From NCBI RefSeq assembly GCF_004099695.1, contig NZ_SCHL01000020.1, forward strand, positions 1 to 62,855: a stretch of 62,855 bases of DNA, in the 5' to 3' direction. A model generated the notes under the pieces. The model did no database searches, was not told the DNA's origin, and was given only the letters and a program-made list of their open reading frames with translations. Source of the stretch: Methanosarcina sp. MSH10X1 (lineage in GTDB: Archaea; Halobacteriota; Methanosarcinia; Methanosarcinales; Methanosarcinaceae). Made by a program: the position numbers and the translations under genes. The first letter of the stretch is position 1, and each line of letters starts with the position of its first letter. This document shows, piece by piece, positions 2,062 to 8,052 of this stretch.

Positions 2062-3276
2062 TTATTCATATCTCAGAGCGTCCACAGGATTCATGCGTGC
2101 AGCTTTTCTTGCAGGATATAGGCCAGCAGTTACTCCCACCAGGATAGAAATCGCAATTCCGATTTCGATCAACTTTAAGGGAAAGACAGGAGGAAGTTTA
2201 AGAGCACTCTCAAGAGCGTAAGCCCCCAGACCGCCTATTGCAGTGCCTACAATTCCCCCAAAGAAGCTGACCATTATGGATTCAAGCAAGAAAAGGGATA
2301 GAATATTGGAATTGCTGTAACCTACAGATTTCATTATCCCGATTTCCCTGGTTCTTTCAGTTACGGTCACAAGCATAATATTCATAATTCCTATTGAGCC
2401 CACAAAAAGAGAGATAAGGGCAAGAGCCAGCAGGAAAGAATTCAAAGCATCTCCTATTTTTCCTGTTTGCTCAAGAACTTCTTCCTGGTTAAAGACGTAA
2501 TAAGGTTTTACATCCTCATTATCAATGTCTCTTTCCGGAACTCCGAAATTCCGGGCAAATCTGCTATCTACGTCATCTGAAATATCACGAACTTTTTCAG
2601 GACTGTCCGCCATTGCAAGGAAAGCTCCATAGTCCTTTTCCCCGATCATTTCGTTCATAGTAGAAATGGGAATGAAAACTGTCAAATCGTAGTCACTGTC
2701 TTGACTTACAACCGTTGGCTCGGAATCTTTCAGTATGCCTTTTACCTTAAAACTTTTTGTCACAATTGTACCATTTTCCTGTCGGAAAGCGATCTCTACA
2801 GTACTCCTGTGGGAGATATTCTTACTGAACTTGTCGTTTGCAATATCATACCCAAGAACAGCAGATGCGCTATCTTTATCCGTCAGGAAAGTACCCCCTT
2901 CCATTTGCAGGCCCTGAATTTTCTGAAAATCCTTGTTAACTCCTGCAATATTCACATTTTTAGTCTCTGAGAGATATATGAGATCCCCGCTCATCGTTTT
3001 TCTGGGAGATACGCCTGTAATTCCCGGAGTATTCTTCATAAGATTGTACTCGTTTTCAAAGAAAATGTTTGGCTGCTCGCTGGCTGCAATAATAAAATTG
3101 GAGCCTACTGAAGAGATCTCATCAGTAAAAAACTGATTAAAGCTGGCACCAAGGGATGCATTTACAACAACGGCAGCTATGCCAATTACTATTCCCAGTG
3201 TGGTGAGTGCAGACCTTAGCTTAGCACTTCCTATACTCCCGGATGCTATACGGGCTGCCTGTCCAAATTTTATCAT
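2062..3276 (-). CDS. MacB/FtsX-family ABC transporter permease
   Basis: A 404-residue permease with the MacB layout: one membrane helix near residues 20-40 (TTLGIVIGIAAVVV), a large extracytoplasmic MacB_PCD-like domain to about residue 275, then three C-terminal helices of the FtsX domain. These contain typical segments such as GSIGIMNIMLV, TERTREIGIMKSVG and GLYPARKAARMNPVDALRYE. It follows the COG1361 gene by about 40 bp, in the order ATPase, surface protein, permease, so the three are probably co-transcribed. The family includes exporters of peptides and lipoproteins and mechanotransmission systems; the substrate here cannot be read from sequence. Confidence 0.93.
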   Translation of the reverse strand: MIKFGQAARIASGSIGSAKLRSALTTLGIVIGIAAVVVNASLGASFNQFFTDEISSVGSNFIIAASEQPNIFFENEYNLMKNTPGITGVSPRKTMSGDLIYLSETKNVNIAGVNKDFQKIQGLQMEGGTFLTDKDSASAVLGYDIANDKFSKNISHRSTVEIAFRQENGTIVTKSFKVKGILKDSEPTVVSQDSDYDLTVFIPISTMNEMIGEKDYGAFLAMADSPEKVRDISDDVDSRFARNFGVPERDIDNEDVKPYYVFNQEEVLEQTGKIGDALNSFLLALALISLFVGSIGIMNIMLVTVTERTREIGIMKSVGYSNSNILSLFLLESIMVSFFGGIVGTAIGGLGAYALESALKLPPVFPLKLIEIGIAISILVGVTAGLYPARKAARMNPVDALRYE

Positions 3277-3318
3277 ATTCTACCCCACAAATATGATGTC
3301 AGTTCACAAGTTTTAGGT

Positions 3319-4560
3319 TTATTGTTTTCTTTTCTTGTAGAACAAGAAAGCAGCAGGAACAGAGACTATAAGAAGTCCGCCTGCCAGTACGGCTGTTGGA
3401 TTAGATTCCGTAGATCCCGAAGCACTGGTGAAGTTCAGGTTGCCTACAGTATTTGCATGTCTGTTAATTCCATTATTATAGTTTGCAGTAAGGCTCATAT
3501 TTTTACCCTCCTCCCTGCCAGGACTCCACGAATCGTCTGCTACCGCATTGAATTCAATAGTAAAGAGTTCATCCGGATTCATTGGCCCTATGAAGTATTC
3601 TGCAGGGTAGAATCTCATACCTTCGGCTTCTGGTTTTATGCTTACCGAATTGAATTCGTTAGGGTGGGTATTTGCCACATCGAACTCAATTGTAGCTTTT
3701 CCATCGACCATTGTAAGTTCTTTTGAGGGGATCACTCTTATGTTCGAGGAATCGACCTTGAGAGGAATATTCTTTCTGCTGTTGTAATCAAAGGAGTTGC
3801 CCTCGATTGCAAGTTCAAGGTTATGAGTTCCTTCTGTAGCCTCCTCTGCAACCCTAACATTGAAGGTCAGCCTGATGCTGTCTCCAGGCCCCAGAAGACC
3901 CATATCCTCGTAGGGAGCGTCAAGCACAACTATTCCGTCAGATAAAGGTCTTAAGACCGCAGCCTGGATTCGGGCATTGGTATCAAAGTCACTCCCATCA
4001 ATGGTGACAGTTGGAGTAGTTGCTGTGTTCGTAAGAGTTACAGTAATGGTCCCCCTGTCCCCGGGCATGAAAACTCTGGGCTCCGAAATAACTTCCTTAA
4101 GCTCAACCGTGCCTTTACTGTTAAATGTTTCAGTGCCTATTCGTATGTCAAAGCTTTTCTCACTCCAGGGACTGTCTTTATCCGTCTTTGTCCGGATATC
4201 AATAGAGCGCACTCCTTTCTGTGCGTTTTTATCTACAAAAAGATGAAACTCTTTTGTAGCAGTCCTGCCAGGATTGAGAACTCCGACGTTCTTCAGAGCA
4301 TTTGCCTGGGAATCAAGAGAGAAAGGATATTGAGGTACGATTTCGATGTCAACATTCTCAGCTTTGTCTCCTCCGATGTTTTCCAACTGAACGGTTAGAG
4401 TCAGATATTCTCCTATTTTTGCAGGATAGGGATTTGTTTCGACTATTGTAACTTTCAGGTTGGCTCCCCCAACAGCTGCAGAGGCAGGAGCTGCAAAAAT
4501 TGAGGAGATTAAGAGCAACGAAAAAAAAGCTGCGATAGTGTTCTTTTTAATTATTTGCAT
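3319..4560 (-). CDS. COG1361 S-layer-like surface protein, C-terminally anchored
   Basis: 413 residues. A signal peptide (about residues 1-28, ending PASA) is followed by NEW1/CARDB-like beta-sandwich modules containing phrases such as LENIGGDKAENVDIEI and PGDRGTITVTLTNT. A C-terminal hydrophobic anchor (AVLAGGLLIVSVPAAFLF) ends in the basic tail YKKRKQ. This is the usual architecture of COG1361 proteins on methanogen cell surfaces. It sits between an ATPase and a MacB permease, which suggests an extracytoplasmic accessory subunit. Its N-terminal two thirds is almost identical to the partial gene at 1-644, while the adjoining ATPases have diverged much more. Confidence 0.9.
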   Translation of the reverse strand: MQIIKKNTIAAFFSLLLISSIFAAPASAAVGGANLKVTIVETNPYPAKIGEYLTLTVQLENIGGDKAENVDIEIVPQYPFSLDSQANALKNVGVLNPGRTATKEFHLFVDKNAQKGVRSIDIRTKTDKDSPWSEKSFDIRIGTETFNSKGTVELKEVISEPRVFMPGDRGTITVTLTNTATTPTVTIDGSDFDTNARIQAAVLRPLSDGIVVLDAPYEDMGLLGPGDSIRLTFNVRVAEEATEGTHNLELAIEGNSFDYNSRKNIPLKVDSSNIRVIPSKELTMVDGKATIEFDVANTHPNEFNSVSIKPEAEGMRFYPAEYFIGPMNPDELFTIEFNAVADDSWSPGREEGKNMSLTANYNNGINRHANTVGNLNFTSASGSTESNPTAVLAGGLLIVSVPAAFLFYKKRKQ

Positions 4561-4572
4561 GTATTTCCACCT

Positions 4573-5295
4573 TCAATTGTATTGAATTATTCCATCCTTT
4601 ACAAGGATAACTCTATCAGCGTATTTTGCAATTTCAGGGTCGTGTGTAACGATTACTACTGTTCTACCTTCCGTATTCAAATCCATAAATATTCGAAGGA
4701 TTTCGGCTCCTGTTCTGGAGTCAAGGTTTCCGGTCGGCTCATCTGCCAGAAGGATTGCAGGGTCGTTAATAAGTGCACGTGCAATTGAGACCCGCTGGGA
4801 TTGCCCTCCTGAAAGTTCCCCTGGTTTGTGATGCATGCGGTCATGCAGTCCCATAATTTTAAGAAGTTCCTTTGCACGTCTCTTTGGATCGATATTGGTT
4901 CTCGAATTAGCAAAGGTAGGAAGCAAGATATTTTCAAGTGCAGTCAGGCGCGGAACAAGATTGAAAGTTTGAAAAATAAAACCTATTTCGAGCCCCCGAA
5001 GATGGGCGAGCTCTTGATCTGACATCCTATTTAGATCCTTTCCCCTTACAAGAACCTGTCCTTGAGTAGGCCTGTCAAGGCAGCCTATAAGGTTCACAAG
5101 AGTACTTTTTCCAGAGCCTGATGGGCCCATGATAGCCAGAAATTCTCCTTGTTCAATTTTAAGATTTACATCTGAGAGAACGGGAATCTCCATACTCCCA
5201 AGTATATAGGTTTTCCTGACATTGGAGACTTCGACAATAGGAAGTCTGTCCTCAGGCAAATTATTTTTGTTAATATACACGTCCCCCTGTCCCAA
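4573..5295 (-). CDS. ABC transporter ATP-binding protein, LolD/MacB type
   Basis: 240 residues with Walker A at about 57-65 (GPSGSGKST), Q loop FIFQTFNLVPRLTALEN, signature LSGGQSQRV, Walker B ILLADEPTGNLD and IVTHDPEIA. The length is standard for this subfamily. It is the first gene of the right-hand cassette; its stop lies 12 bp before the COG1361 gene, which supports one operon of ATPase, surface protein and permease (5295 down to 2062). Inferred to energise the MacB-like permease. Confidence 0.95.
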   Translation of the reverse strand: MGQGDVYINKNNLPEDRLPIVEVSNVRKTYILGSMEIPVLSDVNLKIEQGEFLAIMGPSGSGKSTLVNLIGCLDRPTQGQVLVRGKDLNRMSDQELAHLRGLEIGFIFQTFNLVPRLTALENILLPTFANSRTNIDPKRRAKELLKIMGLHDRMHHKPGELSGGQSQRVSIARALINDPAILLADEPTGNLDSRTGAEILRIFMDLNTEGRTVVIVTHDPEIAKYADRVILVKDGIIQYN

Positions 5296-6092
5296 AGTTA
5301 CTAAAATGTGATAGAAGAATTACATTGAATAATCTCAATGTTTTTACTCATTATGTAAGACAGTCCATTTTAACTTATGCTTTATTAATTTTCGCCCAAA
5401 GACCCAGTTTGAAGGCATATAGATATTGTTTTGTAAATTAAAAATCATGGATATTAATTGGTTATCAGAAGATGTTTCTCGAATTACCCTCTGGACTTTT
5501 TTAAATAACTTATCATTATAAATAATGAATCTTTACCAAAAAATACGAAAACTAGAGTCAGCTAAAATATAGGCTGTGAAAACAGATAGCTGTAATTCTT
5601 TCATGAGGTGAAAGACCTTTTACAGAAAATTTACGAACATTCTCCAGAAGTAACCTTCATAAATTAATAATGTATCTATATGCACATATATTAGAAAACC
5701 ACTGACGGGTTCAAAACGACTAAACCAATCATTTTTAAAAATTTTTTCATTTAATCTTGAGACACAGTAAAATATTTAGATCAAGGTGGAGAATAAATTA
5801 GGGACTTTTAAACATTAAATAGGTTAAAAAATATATATCTGTATAAGGGAACCTTACTCTAAACATTTAGAAACTATTTTTCATAAGGAGATGAAATTCT
5901 ACCGAGCTTATATAATTTGGTATATATAGCTATATACAGTCACTGTTGGTTAAAGTTTTGAACGGTAGATCTCGAATTAATAGAAAATGCATCATAGAAT
6001 ATTAATAAGTGCTGACAGGGGCTGTGAAAAAGGTACCATTTAGCAGTACGCAAACATTGATATAAAAATGTAAAACAAAGGGGGGAATAGAT
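5296..6092. other. AT-rich intergenic region with hairpin and leader of the mini-ORF array
   Basis: No ORF of ordinary size on either strand. A stem-loop at 5590-5625 pairs CTGTAA with TTACAG and has an inner CTTTCA/TGAAAG stem; it could be a small RNA or a terminator. Near 6010-6053 GTGCTG can pair with CAGTAC. TATA-like runs lie at about 5908-5935. The right end carries the G-rich ribosome-binding site of the first mini-ORF. Confidence 0.5.
5908..5935 (+). promoter_or_regulatory. candidate TATA promoter of the mini-ORF array
   Basis: Two overlapping TATA-like stretches (TTATATAAT and GTATATATAGC) lie about 160-185 bp before the first mini-ORF. If used, transcription would start near 5940-5960 and give a leader of about 130-150 nt. 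Inferred from position and composition only. Confidence 0.35.
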
Positions 6093-6182
6093 ATGGTCTT
6101 TGCATTTAACTTTAGTCAGATGTTCGCATTCATGACTAACTTCAACTTCGTATTCGATTTAGGCAATTTCTGCTTTTTCTAA
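6093..6182 (+). CDS. 29-residue aromatic-rich mini-protein, head of tandem array
   Basis: ATG at 6093 follows a GGGGGG ribosome-binding site by about nine bases. The peptide begins MVFAFNFSQMFAF and ends NFCFF; eleven of its 29 residues are Phe. It shares the M(I/V)FxFxxS start and a Cys-Phe end with the 25-residue peptides encoded downstream, so I read it as a diverged founder of the same family. A perfect TTCTGCAG/CTGCAGAA stem (6202-6242) follows. No family is recognised and function is unknown. Confidence 0.6.
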   Translation: MVFAFNFSQMFAFMTNFNFVFDLGNFCFF

Positions 6183-6295
6183 GCGGAAGTGCAAGATGTG
6201 TTTCTGCAGGGAGAACCATAAGGTCTTATCCAGACTGCAGAAGACCAGGGTATAACGGGGGATAAACAAAACCAGGAAAAAGTGAGGGATTTAAA

Positions 6296-6373
6296 ATGAT
6301 CTTCAGTTTCGAATATTCAAATATTATAAAGTACTTCCAGGCGGAGTGCTTCAAATTCTTCTACTGCTTCTAA
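6296..6373 (+). CDS. 25-residue aromatic-rich mini-protein, array unit 1
   Basis: ATG at 6296 follows GTGAGGG by seven bases. The peptide starts MIFSFEYSNIIKYF and ends AECFKFFYCF: ten aromatic residues and two Cys in 25 positions. It has no long aliphatic helix typical of a classic membrane toxin, but is strongly amphipathic. The ORF is followed by a CAAGCTGTAAGAAAAAG segment and the stem-loop of the next unit. No known family; translation is inferred from the ribosome-binding site and from conservation of the frame among copies. Confidence 0.65.
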   Translation: MIFSFEYSNIIKYFQAECFKFFYCF

Positions 6374-6488: not shown

Positions 6489-6566
6489 ATGATTTTCAGT
6501 TTCGAATATTCAAAGATTACACAGTACTTCCAGGCGGAATGCTTCAAATTCTTCTACTGCTTCTAA
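6489..6566 (+). CDS. 25-residue aromatic-rich mini-protein, array unit 2
   Basis: Same architecture as unit 1. The peptide begins MIFSFEYSKITQYF and ends AECFKFFYCF. Compared with unit 1 there are two silent changes (ATC/ATT and GAG/GAA) and three replacements (N9K, I11T, K12Q). All aromatic positions and both Cys are retained. Confidence 0.65.
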   Translation: MIFSFEYSKITQYFQAECFKFFYCF

Positions 6567-6681: not shown

Positions 6682-6759
6682 ATGATTTTCAGTTTCGAAT
6701 ATTCAAAGATTACACAGTACTTCCAGACAGAATGCTTCAAATTCTTCTACTGCTTCTAA
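6682..6759 (+). CDS. 25-residue aromatic-rich mini-protein, array unit 3
   Basis: Identical to unit 2 except that the Ala before Glu-Cys is Thr (QTECFKFFYCF). The upstream leader from the TATAACGGGG element to the ATG is base-identical to that of unit 2, so this is the most recent duplication in the array. Ribosome-binding site GTGAGGG. Confidence 0.65.
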   Translation: MIFSFEYSKITQYFQTECFKFFYCF

Positions 6760-6870: not shown

Positions 6871-6948
6871 ATGATTTTCAGTTTCGAATATTCAAATATT
6901 GTAAAGTACTTCCAGGCGGAGTGCTTCAAATTCTTCTACTGCTTATAA
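6871..6948 (+). CDS. 25-residue aromatic-rich mini-protein, array unit 4
   Basis: ATG at 6871 with GTGAGGG upstream. The peptide begins MIFSFEYSNIVKYF and ends FKFFYCL, with the last codon TTA instead of TTC. It is closest to unit 1 (one conservative change, I11V, plus the end). The stem-loop after it (6967-7012) has diverged in sequence but still folds with a GGGAAG/CTTCCC core. Confidence 0.65.
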   Translation: MIFSFEYSNIVKYFQAECFKFFYCL

Positions 6949-7066
6949 ATACGCATAGTTAAAATGTTCCTGCAGGGAAGGACTGCAAAGCTTATACTTC
7001 CCAATTGTAGAAGACTAGAGTATAACGGAGGATAAACAAAACGCAGAATTGAGTGGAGGGATTAAA

Positions 7067-7144
7067 ATGATCTTCGAAATTTTCTACTCGCAGGTCAACA
7101 GTTACTTCCAAGCTGAAACGTTGAAATTCTATTATAAGCTTTGA
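7067..7144 (+). CDS. 25-residue mini-protein, divergent last array unit
   Basis: The most diverged copy. Its ribosome-binding site is a fuller GGAGGG. The peptide begins MIFEIFYSQVNSYF and ends QAETLKFYYKL. Despite many substitutions it keeps the exact length, the MIF start, the YFQAE core and the KF(F/Y)Y tail, but loses both Cys. A frame kept through this much drift argues that the peptide itself is under selection. It is followed 26 bp later by a strong terminator hairpin. Confidence 0.6.
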   Translation: MIFEIFYSQVNSYFQAETLKFYYKL

Positions 7145-7170: not shown

Positions 7171-7206
7171 ACGAAGTTGCCAGCCCTTCAGGCAACTTCG
7201 TCCTTA
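7171..7206 (+). terminator. strong stem-loop terminator of the mini-ORF array
   Basis: ACGAAGTTGCC (7171-7181) pairs perfectly with GGCAACTTCGT (7191-7201) around a nine-base loop. Such an 11-bp perfect stem after the last ORF marks the end of the array transcript, or a stable RNA 3' end. There is only a short pyrimidine stretch afterwards. Confidence 0.7.
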
Positions 7207-7805
7207 TAAAAGAAATATAATACTGCCACTTTTTTACCTCCTTTTTATTTTGCTGATATTTACTCTTTTTAATGTCTCTATGAGATCTCTACCATGTCGG
7301 ACATACTTTTGGAAATATAAGAAAAACAAACCTCGTAAAATTTAAAATTGATACTGAAAACTTTAGAATCGGGAAAATATAATATTTTTTAAAGGTTATA
7401 GTTTTCTACGAGGATATTCACTCCAGAGTAATCAAAATAGAATGTAGAGAATCGAGAGGTCTGTCCATCCAAATATAAGATTGCAGCAAAAGCTTCTGTT
7501 AGCTTATGTTAGATTCTGTTTCCAAATACTAAAAGACTATTATTTGTAAGGAGTTGTTATTCTCCACATTATATGTAAATTAAGAGTATACCTTAATATT
7601 GATGATCCTGTGTGAGTCTAGTTCTGAATCTTGTTTCTTTAATAAACTGAGATTTTGTAAATTAGACTAACTTGGATTTCAATAACCTAAGTATATGATT
7701 TAAGGTGCTTTAAGATCCTTTGGTCTTTTAGCCAGGAGTCTCCAAGATTGTTTATACTTACCTTCAATCCCAAAAATAGGTTCTGGGAGTATAACTTGGG
7801 AGTAT
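7207..7805. other. intergenic, about 600 bp
   Basis: AT-rich spacer between the mini-ORF array and the 37-codon mini-gene. No ORF, repeat or convincing hairpin recognised. Confidence 0.5.
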
Positions 7806-7816: not shown

Positions 7817-7938
7817 GGATATCTAAGGGGGTTTGGCGAAAGCGAATTCTATCCGAGGGATTAGAGAACTGAATTTGGTTAGCAGAAGCTATAAATCTAA
7901 ACGAGAAAAAATAAAATTTCACTATGGAGGGAATTACA

Positions 7939-8052
7939 ATGTTTTACTATATAAGTTATACAAAAGTCACCATACTCATACAAGTAATAAGGTTTAAGAT
8001 GATATATTTTGGCGGCCAGGGTTTTGGCGGCTTTGGAAGATTCCTCAGATGA
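7939..8052 (+). CDS. 37-residue aromatic, glycine-rich mini-protein
   Basis: ATG at 7939 follows a clear GGAGGG by seven bases. The peptide starts MFYYISYTKVTILIQVI and ends with a Gly-rich stretch, GGQGFGGFGRFLR. It sits between its own TATA-like box (about 7806) and a stem-loop with a T run (8103-8154), so it looks like a complete monocistronic unit. Like the array peptides it is rich in Phe and Tyr, but I cannot align it with them. No known family. Confidence 0.5.
   Translation: MFYYISYTKVTILIQVIRFKMIYFGGQGFGGFGRFLR

Follow-up and report, generated by a model that had tools for sequence, protein, structure and literature searches.

The divergent last unit of a tandem array in Methanosarcina has the features of a selected 25-codon gene

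The question raised by the stretch of DNA analysed here, the 62,855-nucleotide contig NZ_SCHL01000020.1 of Methanosarcina sp. MSH10X1 (RefSeq assembly GCF_004099695.1; hereafter the window), is whether the last of five short tandem units, at positions 7067–7144, is a gene selected for its peptide or a piece of structured RNA in which an open reading frame (ORF) is incidental. This unit (unit 5) is strongly diverged from units 1–4, and its ORF encodes a peptide of 25 amino acids (aa). Comparison within the array and across the genus indicates that the units, referred to as family B, are a genuine family of 25-aa genes held by purifying selection. A conserved RNA structure lies in the spacers; the sequence comparisons indicate that peptide and spacer RNA are constrained separately, side by side, with the peptide as the more constant part.

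Unit 5 differs from units 1, 2, 3 and 4 at 33, 33, 34 and 35 of 75 bases, respectively, with 18, 17, 17 and 19 of these differences falling at third codon positions. Despite this divergence its ATG, its 25 codons and its TGA stop are intact, and 12–14 residues are retained relative to units 1–4. Twelve residues (M1, I2, F3, Y7, S8, Y13, F14, Q15, E17, K20, F21 and Y23) are common to unit 5 and all or nearly all of the others, among them most of those in the three stretches that the initial annotation of this sequence had singled out as conserved (MIF at the start, YFQAE in the middle and KF(F/Y)Y near the end). Silent differences among units 1–4, which the same annotation had noted, amount to 1–3 of the 2–8 bases by which any pair differs. 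The better Shine-Dalgarno (SD) site ascribed to unit 5 is genuine but slight, with five bases of GGAGGG pairing with the anti-SD sequence as against four (GAGG) for units 1–3. We also asked what chance would leave of such a unit, by placing 36 differences at random on unit 4 in 200,000 trials: 30% of the mutated units stayed free of internal stops, 0.08% had at least 19 changes at third positions, and none of the 200,000 kept 14 or more of 25 residues identical. The open frame of unit 5, which had been taken as a sign of selection, is therefore weak evidence by itself, and it is the retained residues that are strong evidence. The end copy probably diverges because copies at the end of an array escape homogenisation.

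A homologue set of 80 units, orthologous and paralogous, was obtained from 22 loci in 21 Methanosarcina genomes through a DNA search, which found like arrays in 15 related genomes within the genus, followed by a peptide profile search, which yielded further ones. All 80 units begin with ATG and are open in an identical register over 25–28 codons with no frameshift or stop, and aromatic residues stand in register at Y/W7, Y/F14 and Y/F23 in every one. Read in any other frame, this DNA is open in just 0–22 of the 80 units; an antisense ORF on the minus strand was rejected, its frame being open in 11. Changes inferred on the tree number 153, 114 and 198 at codon positions 1, 2 and 3 (binomial p 2e-5 for the excess at position 3). 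Of the position 3 changes, 62% are transitions, versus 39% at the other positions (p 3e-6). A codon model gave a ratio of nonsynonymous to synonymous rates (dN/dS, omega) of 0.52 with kappa 1.67 and a log-likelihood of -2109.4, compared with about -2125.5 when omega was fixed at 1 (twice the log-likelihood difference 32, p about 1e-8). Length changes within the B ORF stay in frame, and unit-to-unit distances spread from 129 to 365. The coding conclusion drawn from these sequences does not depend on any one test, and the proposal that selection acts on the peptide is borne out across the genus.

The initial annotation had gone further and argued against a purely structural RNA. The coding signature upholds this argument, but conserved RNA structure does exist, in the spacers and not in the coding stretch. 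An element similar to the hairpin and leader element before unit 1 precedes each B unit in the window, and a leader element like GUAUAACGGGGGAUAAACAA is found 36–54 nucleotides (nt) 5' of the ATG in 70 of the 80 units. In the spacer hairpin, 5 of 10 pairs show compensatory changes, and 92% of cells are paired versus 25–49% when the structure is slid along the alignment; this covariation is well above shuffled and slid controls, although the structure was drawn from the same alignment, which favours the score. RNAalifold gave -8.1 kcal/mol for the spacer versus 0.0 kcal/mol for the ORF, with no consensus fold within the latter, and no Rfam family was matched at the gathering threshold within the window. 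The covarying hairpin and the conserved leader element are what could be expected if the unit were a structured regulatory RNA with an incidental ORF. The codon tests contradict such an origin, as do the unstructured ORF and the arrays of G004 and G027 and parts of those of G019 and G021, where the hairpin is absent and the ORFs are still kept, and we regard it as hardly credible.

The B units belong to a larger locus with the fixed order A, B(n), end hairpin and T tract, C (Table 1). This order is seen in 21 genomes, and UBA10923 and Ant1 have divergent forms of the locus. An A-type ORF (24–31 aa, with an SD site, in 1–3 copies) stands 5' of the B units in 21 of 21 main-locus arrays, and the number of B copies, five in this genome, ranges from 2 to 7 per array. 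In nearly all arrays, those of G004 and G027 excepted, the TATATA element of the candidate promoter is found roughly 370–540 nt 5' of the first B unit, and TTGAGCTTATATAA..CAGTCACTG aligns in several genomes. Tracts of T6–T7 cluster about 85–150 nt past the last B unit in most genomes, with few between units. Peptide C (32–44 aa, single copy) is encoded about 760–980 nt further on, and is present in 23 of 31 genomes of the genus; these are exactly the genomes with an A/B-type array when the two divergent loci are counted. Comparison of B with C by hhalign gave a probability of just 9%, yet an E value of 0.004, and a Y-S/T-K-I/V stretch is found in both. An AlphaFold model of peptide C, a low-confidence helix (pLDDT 70, pTM 0.37), was not used. 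A hairpin of the form AGTTGCCTG-N5-CAGGCAACT also recurs in Methanosarcina genomes, at about one or two copies in each and often right behind ordinary genes (position 3197 in L128, 3311 in L121, 3463 in L125, and others). The end hairpin was therefore rejected as a locus-specific element, and is probably a general transcript-end element.

Table 1. Features of the array locus and its left neighbours, in window coordinates.
Feature	Position	Strand	Description
Left neighbours	3319–5295	-	CARDB/NEW3 surface-like protein (3319–4560); MacB/LolD-type ATP-binding cassette (ABC) ATPase (4573–5295); Pfam and NCBIfam matches
Candidate promoter	5907–5939	+	TATA-type stretch CTTATATAA..GGTATATATAGCTATATACAG; aligned TATATA element
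Peptide A gene	6093–6182	+	29 aa, MVFAFNFSQMFAFMTNFNFVFDLGNFCFF; SD GGGGGG at 6080–6085
Spacer RNA before unit 1	6199–6269	+	Hairpin UUCUGCAG/CUGCAGAA, then leader element GUAUAACGGGGGAUAAACAA
Peptide B unit 1	6296–6373	+	25 aa and stop
Peptide B unit 2	6489–6566	+	
Peptide B unit 3	6682–6759	+	
Peptide B unit 4	6871–6948	+	
Peptide B unit 5 (divergent)	7067–7144	+	ATG to TGA, 25 codons, MIFEIFYSQVNSYFQAETLKFYYKL; SD GGAGGG at 7055–7060
Terminal hairpin	7172–7200	+	CGAAGTTGCC-AGCCCTTCA-GGCAACTTCG; similar hairpin 3' of the last B unit in 21/21 main-locus arrays
T tracts	7230–7246	+	T6 and T5; probable archaeal transcription termination, from sequence
Peptide C gene	7939–8052	+	37 aa, MFYYISYTKVTILIQVIRFKMIYFGGQGFGGFGRFLR; SD GGAGGG at 7926–7931

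Carriers of the array include Methanosarcina spelaei MC-15 and the strains DH2 and 2.H.T.1A.6. Several of the eight genomes of the genus without the locus are fragmentary, and the locus is likely to be truly missing only where the assembly is better. Outside Methanosarcina, nothing convincing was found in 112 genomes of the family, where the one marginal match has a stop inside. Most arrays are syntenic, flanked on one side by the CARDB/MacB-type ABC operon and, for the majority of genomes, on the other by a Drr-type ABC operon; the former adjoins the array in the 21 main-locus genomes and in UBA10923. The CARDB/NEW3 gene of the window has a paralogue at 3–632, and two nearby copies are seen in most genomes of the genus.

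The composition of the locus varies at several places. At the same syntenic position in UBA10923 (L092, 9862–10382, plus strand), there are four tandem 32-aa peptides of the MFDTLIGIGNFAIQTATGNAFIAQIIGQWTWV family, together with one B-like peptide and C. The Ant1 array consists of A, three B peptides of 29 aa each and the hairpin; C is encoded on the opposite strand at a distance of about 3.5 kb. A second locus in G014 (L088, G014:C1:3011500-3017500) carries two tandem 27-aa B-like ORFs, MGFFSLYYNKI(I/V)AYYESTQLYIWAGWD, on the minus strand at 3228–3311 and 3406–3489, and two identical 37-aa ORFs rich in Gly, Trp and Cys, MCCGFGFNNWGWGFRHRFWGRGCGCGWGGGCGGWGGC, follow at 1989–2102 and 2180–2293, a GGAGG site standing before every ORF. 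In ERenArc_MAG2 a lone extra B-type peptide, MILRIFYSKVCVSYESTRFFIFYSD, is encoded at 3422–3499 of L086 (plus strand), with a possible partial second copy just 5' of it.

The explanation we consider probable is that unit 5 is a genuine, translated gene for a 25-aa peptide, standing at the end of five tandem B copies that are under purifying selection, amplified for dosage and expressed from one transcript. Such a transcript could extend from the TATA element (about 5907) as far as the T tracts (about 7230–7246), each ORF would be served by its own SD site and leader element, the hairpins may act as cistron spacers or processing sites, and the tandem copies would provide a higher dose of peptide. 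The peptides themselves have no leader or signal sequence, and F and Y together make up 32% of their residues. Their mean transfer energies (-3.9 kcal/mol to the interface, -1.2 kcal/mol to octanol) are those of hydrophobic but interfacial peptides, and their net charge is 0 in 34, +1 in 23, -1 in 14, +2 in 7 and -2 in 2 of the 80. We tentatively suggest, as a possibility somewhat short of even, that these peptides, aromatic-rich and leaderless, have their site of action at the membrane surface and may be exported via the neighbouring ABC systems.

Several observations weigh against these proposals. An omega near 0.5 over 24 codons is moderate and comes from a model with many parameters, and gene conversion within arrays makes the B sequences non-independent. 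There is no significant helical amphipathicity in B (mean helical-moment z 0.01 at 100 degrees), so that an amphipathic helix was rejected, and the periodicity of conservation is not significant either (p 0.82 at 100 degrees; the peak, at about 160 degrees and thus strand-like, has p 0.15); the proposed action at the membrane surface therefore rests on composition. The Ant1 array, finally, does not stand beside the MacB/CARDB operon. An obligatory link between array and operon was discarded for this reason, and ABC export is plausible but not required.

How the B peptides would work can be compared with several known systems. In the staphylococcal psm-alpha operon, tandem ORFs of 20–25 codons with their own SD sites and no leader peptide are expressed from one transcript, and ABC exporters are involved; bacteriocins of the aureocin A70 type are sets of short, related peptides without a leader, the products of tandem genes close to ABC transporters, and are cationic with known activity and immunity. 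By analogy, B could be leaderless secreted peptides resembling phenol-soluble modulins (PSMs) or bacteriocins, exported via the adjacent MacB- or Drr-type transporters and aimed at competitors or at cell aggregation, which we regard as rather doubtful. The B arrays share with both systems the tandem short leaderless peptides and with psm-alpha the separate SD site of each ORF; ABC transporters, also found near the aureocin A70 genes, adjoin nearly all loci, though the MacB/CARDB genes do not adjoin that of Ant1; the free expansion of A or B copy number, as in the four 32-aa copies of UBA10923, is also compatible with secretion. However, PSM-alpha peptides are clearly amphipathic helices and the bacteriocins cationic, whereas B peptides are mostly neutral and without a significant helical moment. 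No sequence relation of B to the PSMs was found, and the two come from different domains of life. Moreover, the transporters are encoded on the opposite strand, the Drr genes are located elsewhere in several genomes, and both array and C in Ant1 lie away from the MacB operon. The same neighbourhood could instead mean that B peptides serve the adjacent ABC/CARDB envelope complex as small regulatory subunits, binding and modulating it, with the conserved aromatic positions forming a binding face; a regulator would not obviously need 2–7 copies, its adjacency is lost in Ant1, and we judge this improbable.

Intergenic long direct repeats in tandem, each with a small hydrophobic ORF, are also found in the Ldr/Ibs type I toxin arrays of Escherichia coli, and B peptides could be toxins of this kind, each silenced by an antisense RNA. 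The likeness extends to the structured leader RNA, but the arrays have no conserved antisense TATA element in a motif scan, the octanol energy leaves B not clearly transmembrane-like, and the A and C peptides would be left unexplained, which makes such toxins quite improbable. Features that define type I toxins and PSMs are lacking here. Returning to the surface-acting peptides suggested above, a wider form of that proposal, which is unlikely as it stands, would see a genus-specific archaeal system in which leaderless A, tandem B and C peptides are made in bulk and exported to or inserted at the cell surface, as a counterpart of PSM or multi-peptide leaderless bacteriocin systems.

While bacteria are known to have leaderless peptide genes in tandem, an archaeal family with the three-peptide A/B/C layout appears to be undescribed. 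Family B has no match in Pfam or NCBIfam and none in PHROGs at E 0.1; one member matched BrxA in PADLOC at E 0.047, and two matches to solved structures had E values of 0.02 and 0.17, all of which were judged to be chance. Six of the peptide fragments were not found printed in the literature searched. A ribosome profiling (Ribo-seq) study of Methanosarcina mazei reported 314 unannotated small ORFs (PMC11456600). Its small-protein RNAs (spRNAs) resemble the array in being unannotated intergenic small ORFs of the same genus, several of them conserved in Methanosarcina; its main text describes no tandem or paralogous array, and single members may be in its supplementary lists (PMC11456600).

Tandem, near-identical peptide genes of this size are easily overlooked by annotation. 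The array is present in most sequenced Methanosarcina species, a genus that is genetically tractable, and either peptide class expands in copy number. If the peptides are indeed surface-active or secreted, they would represent a rare dosage-amplified leaderless peptide system in methanogens.
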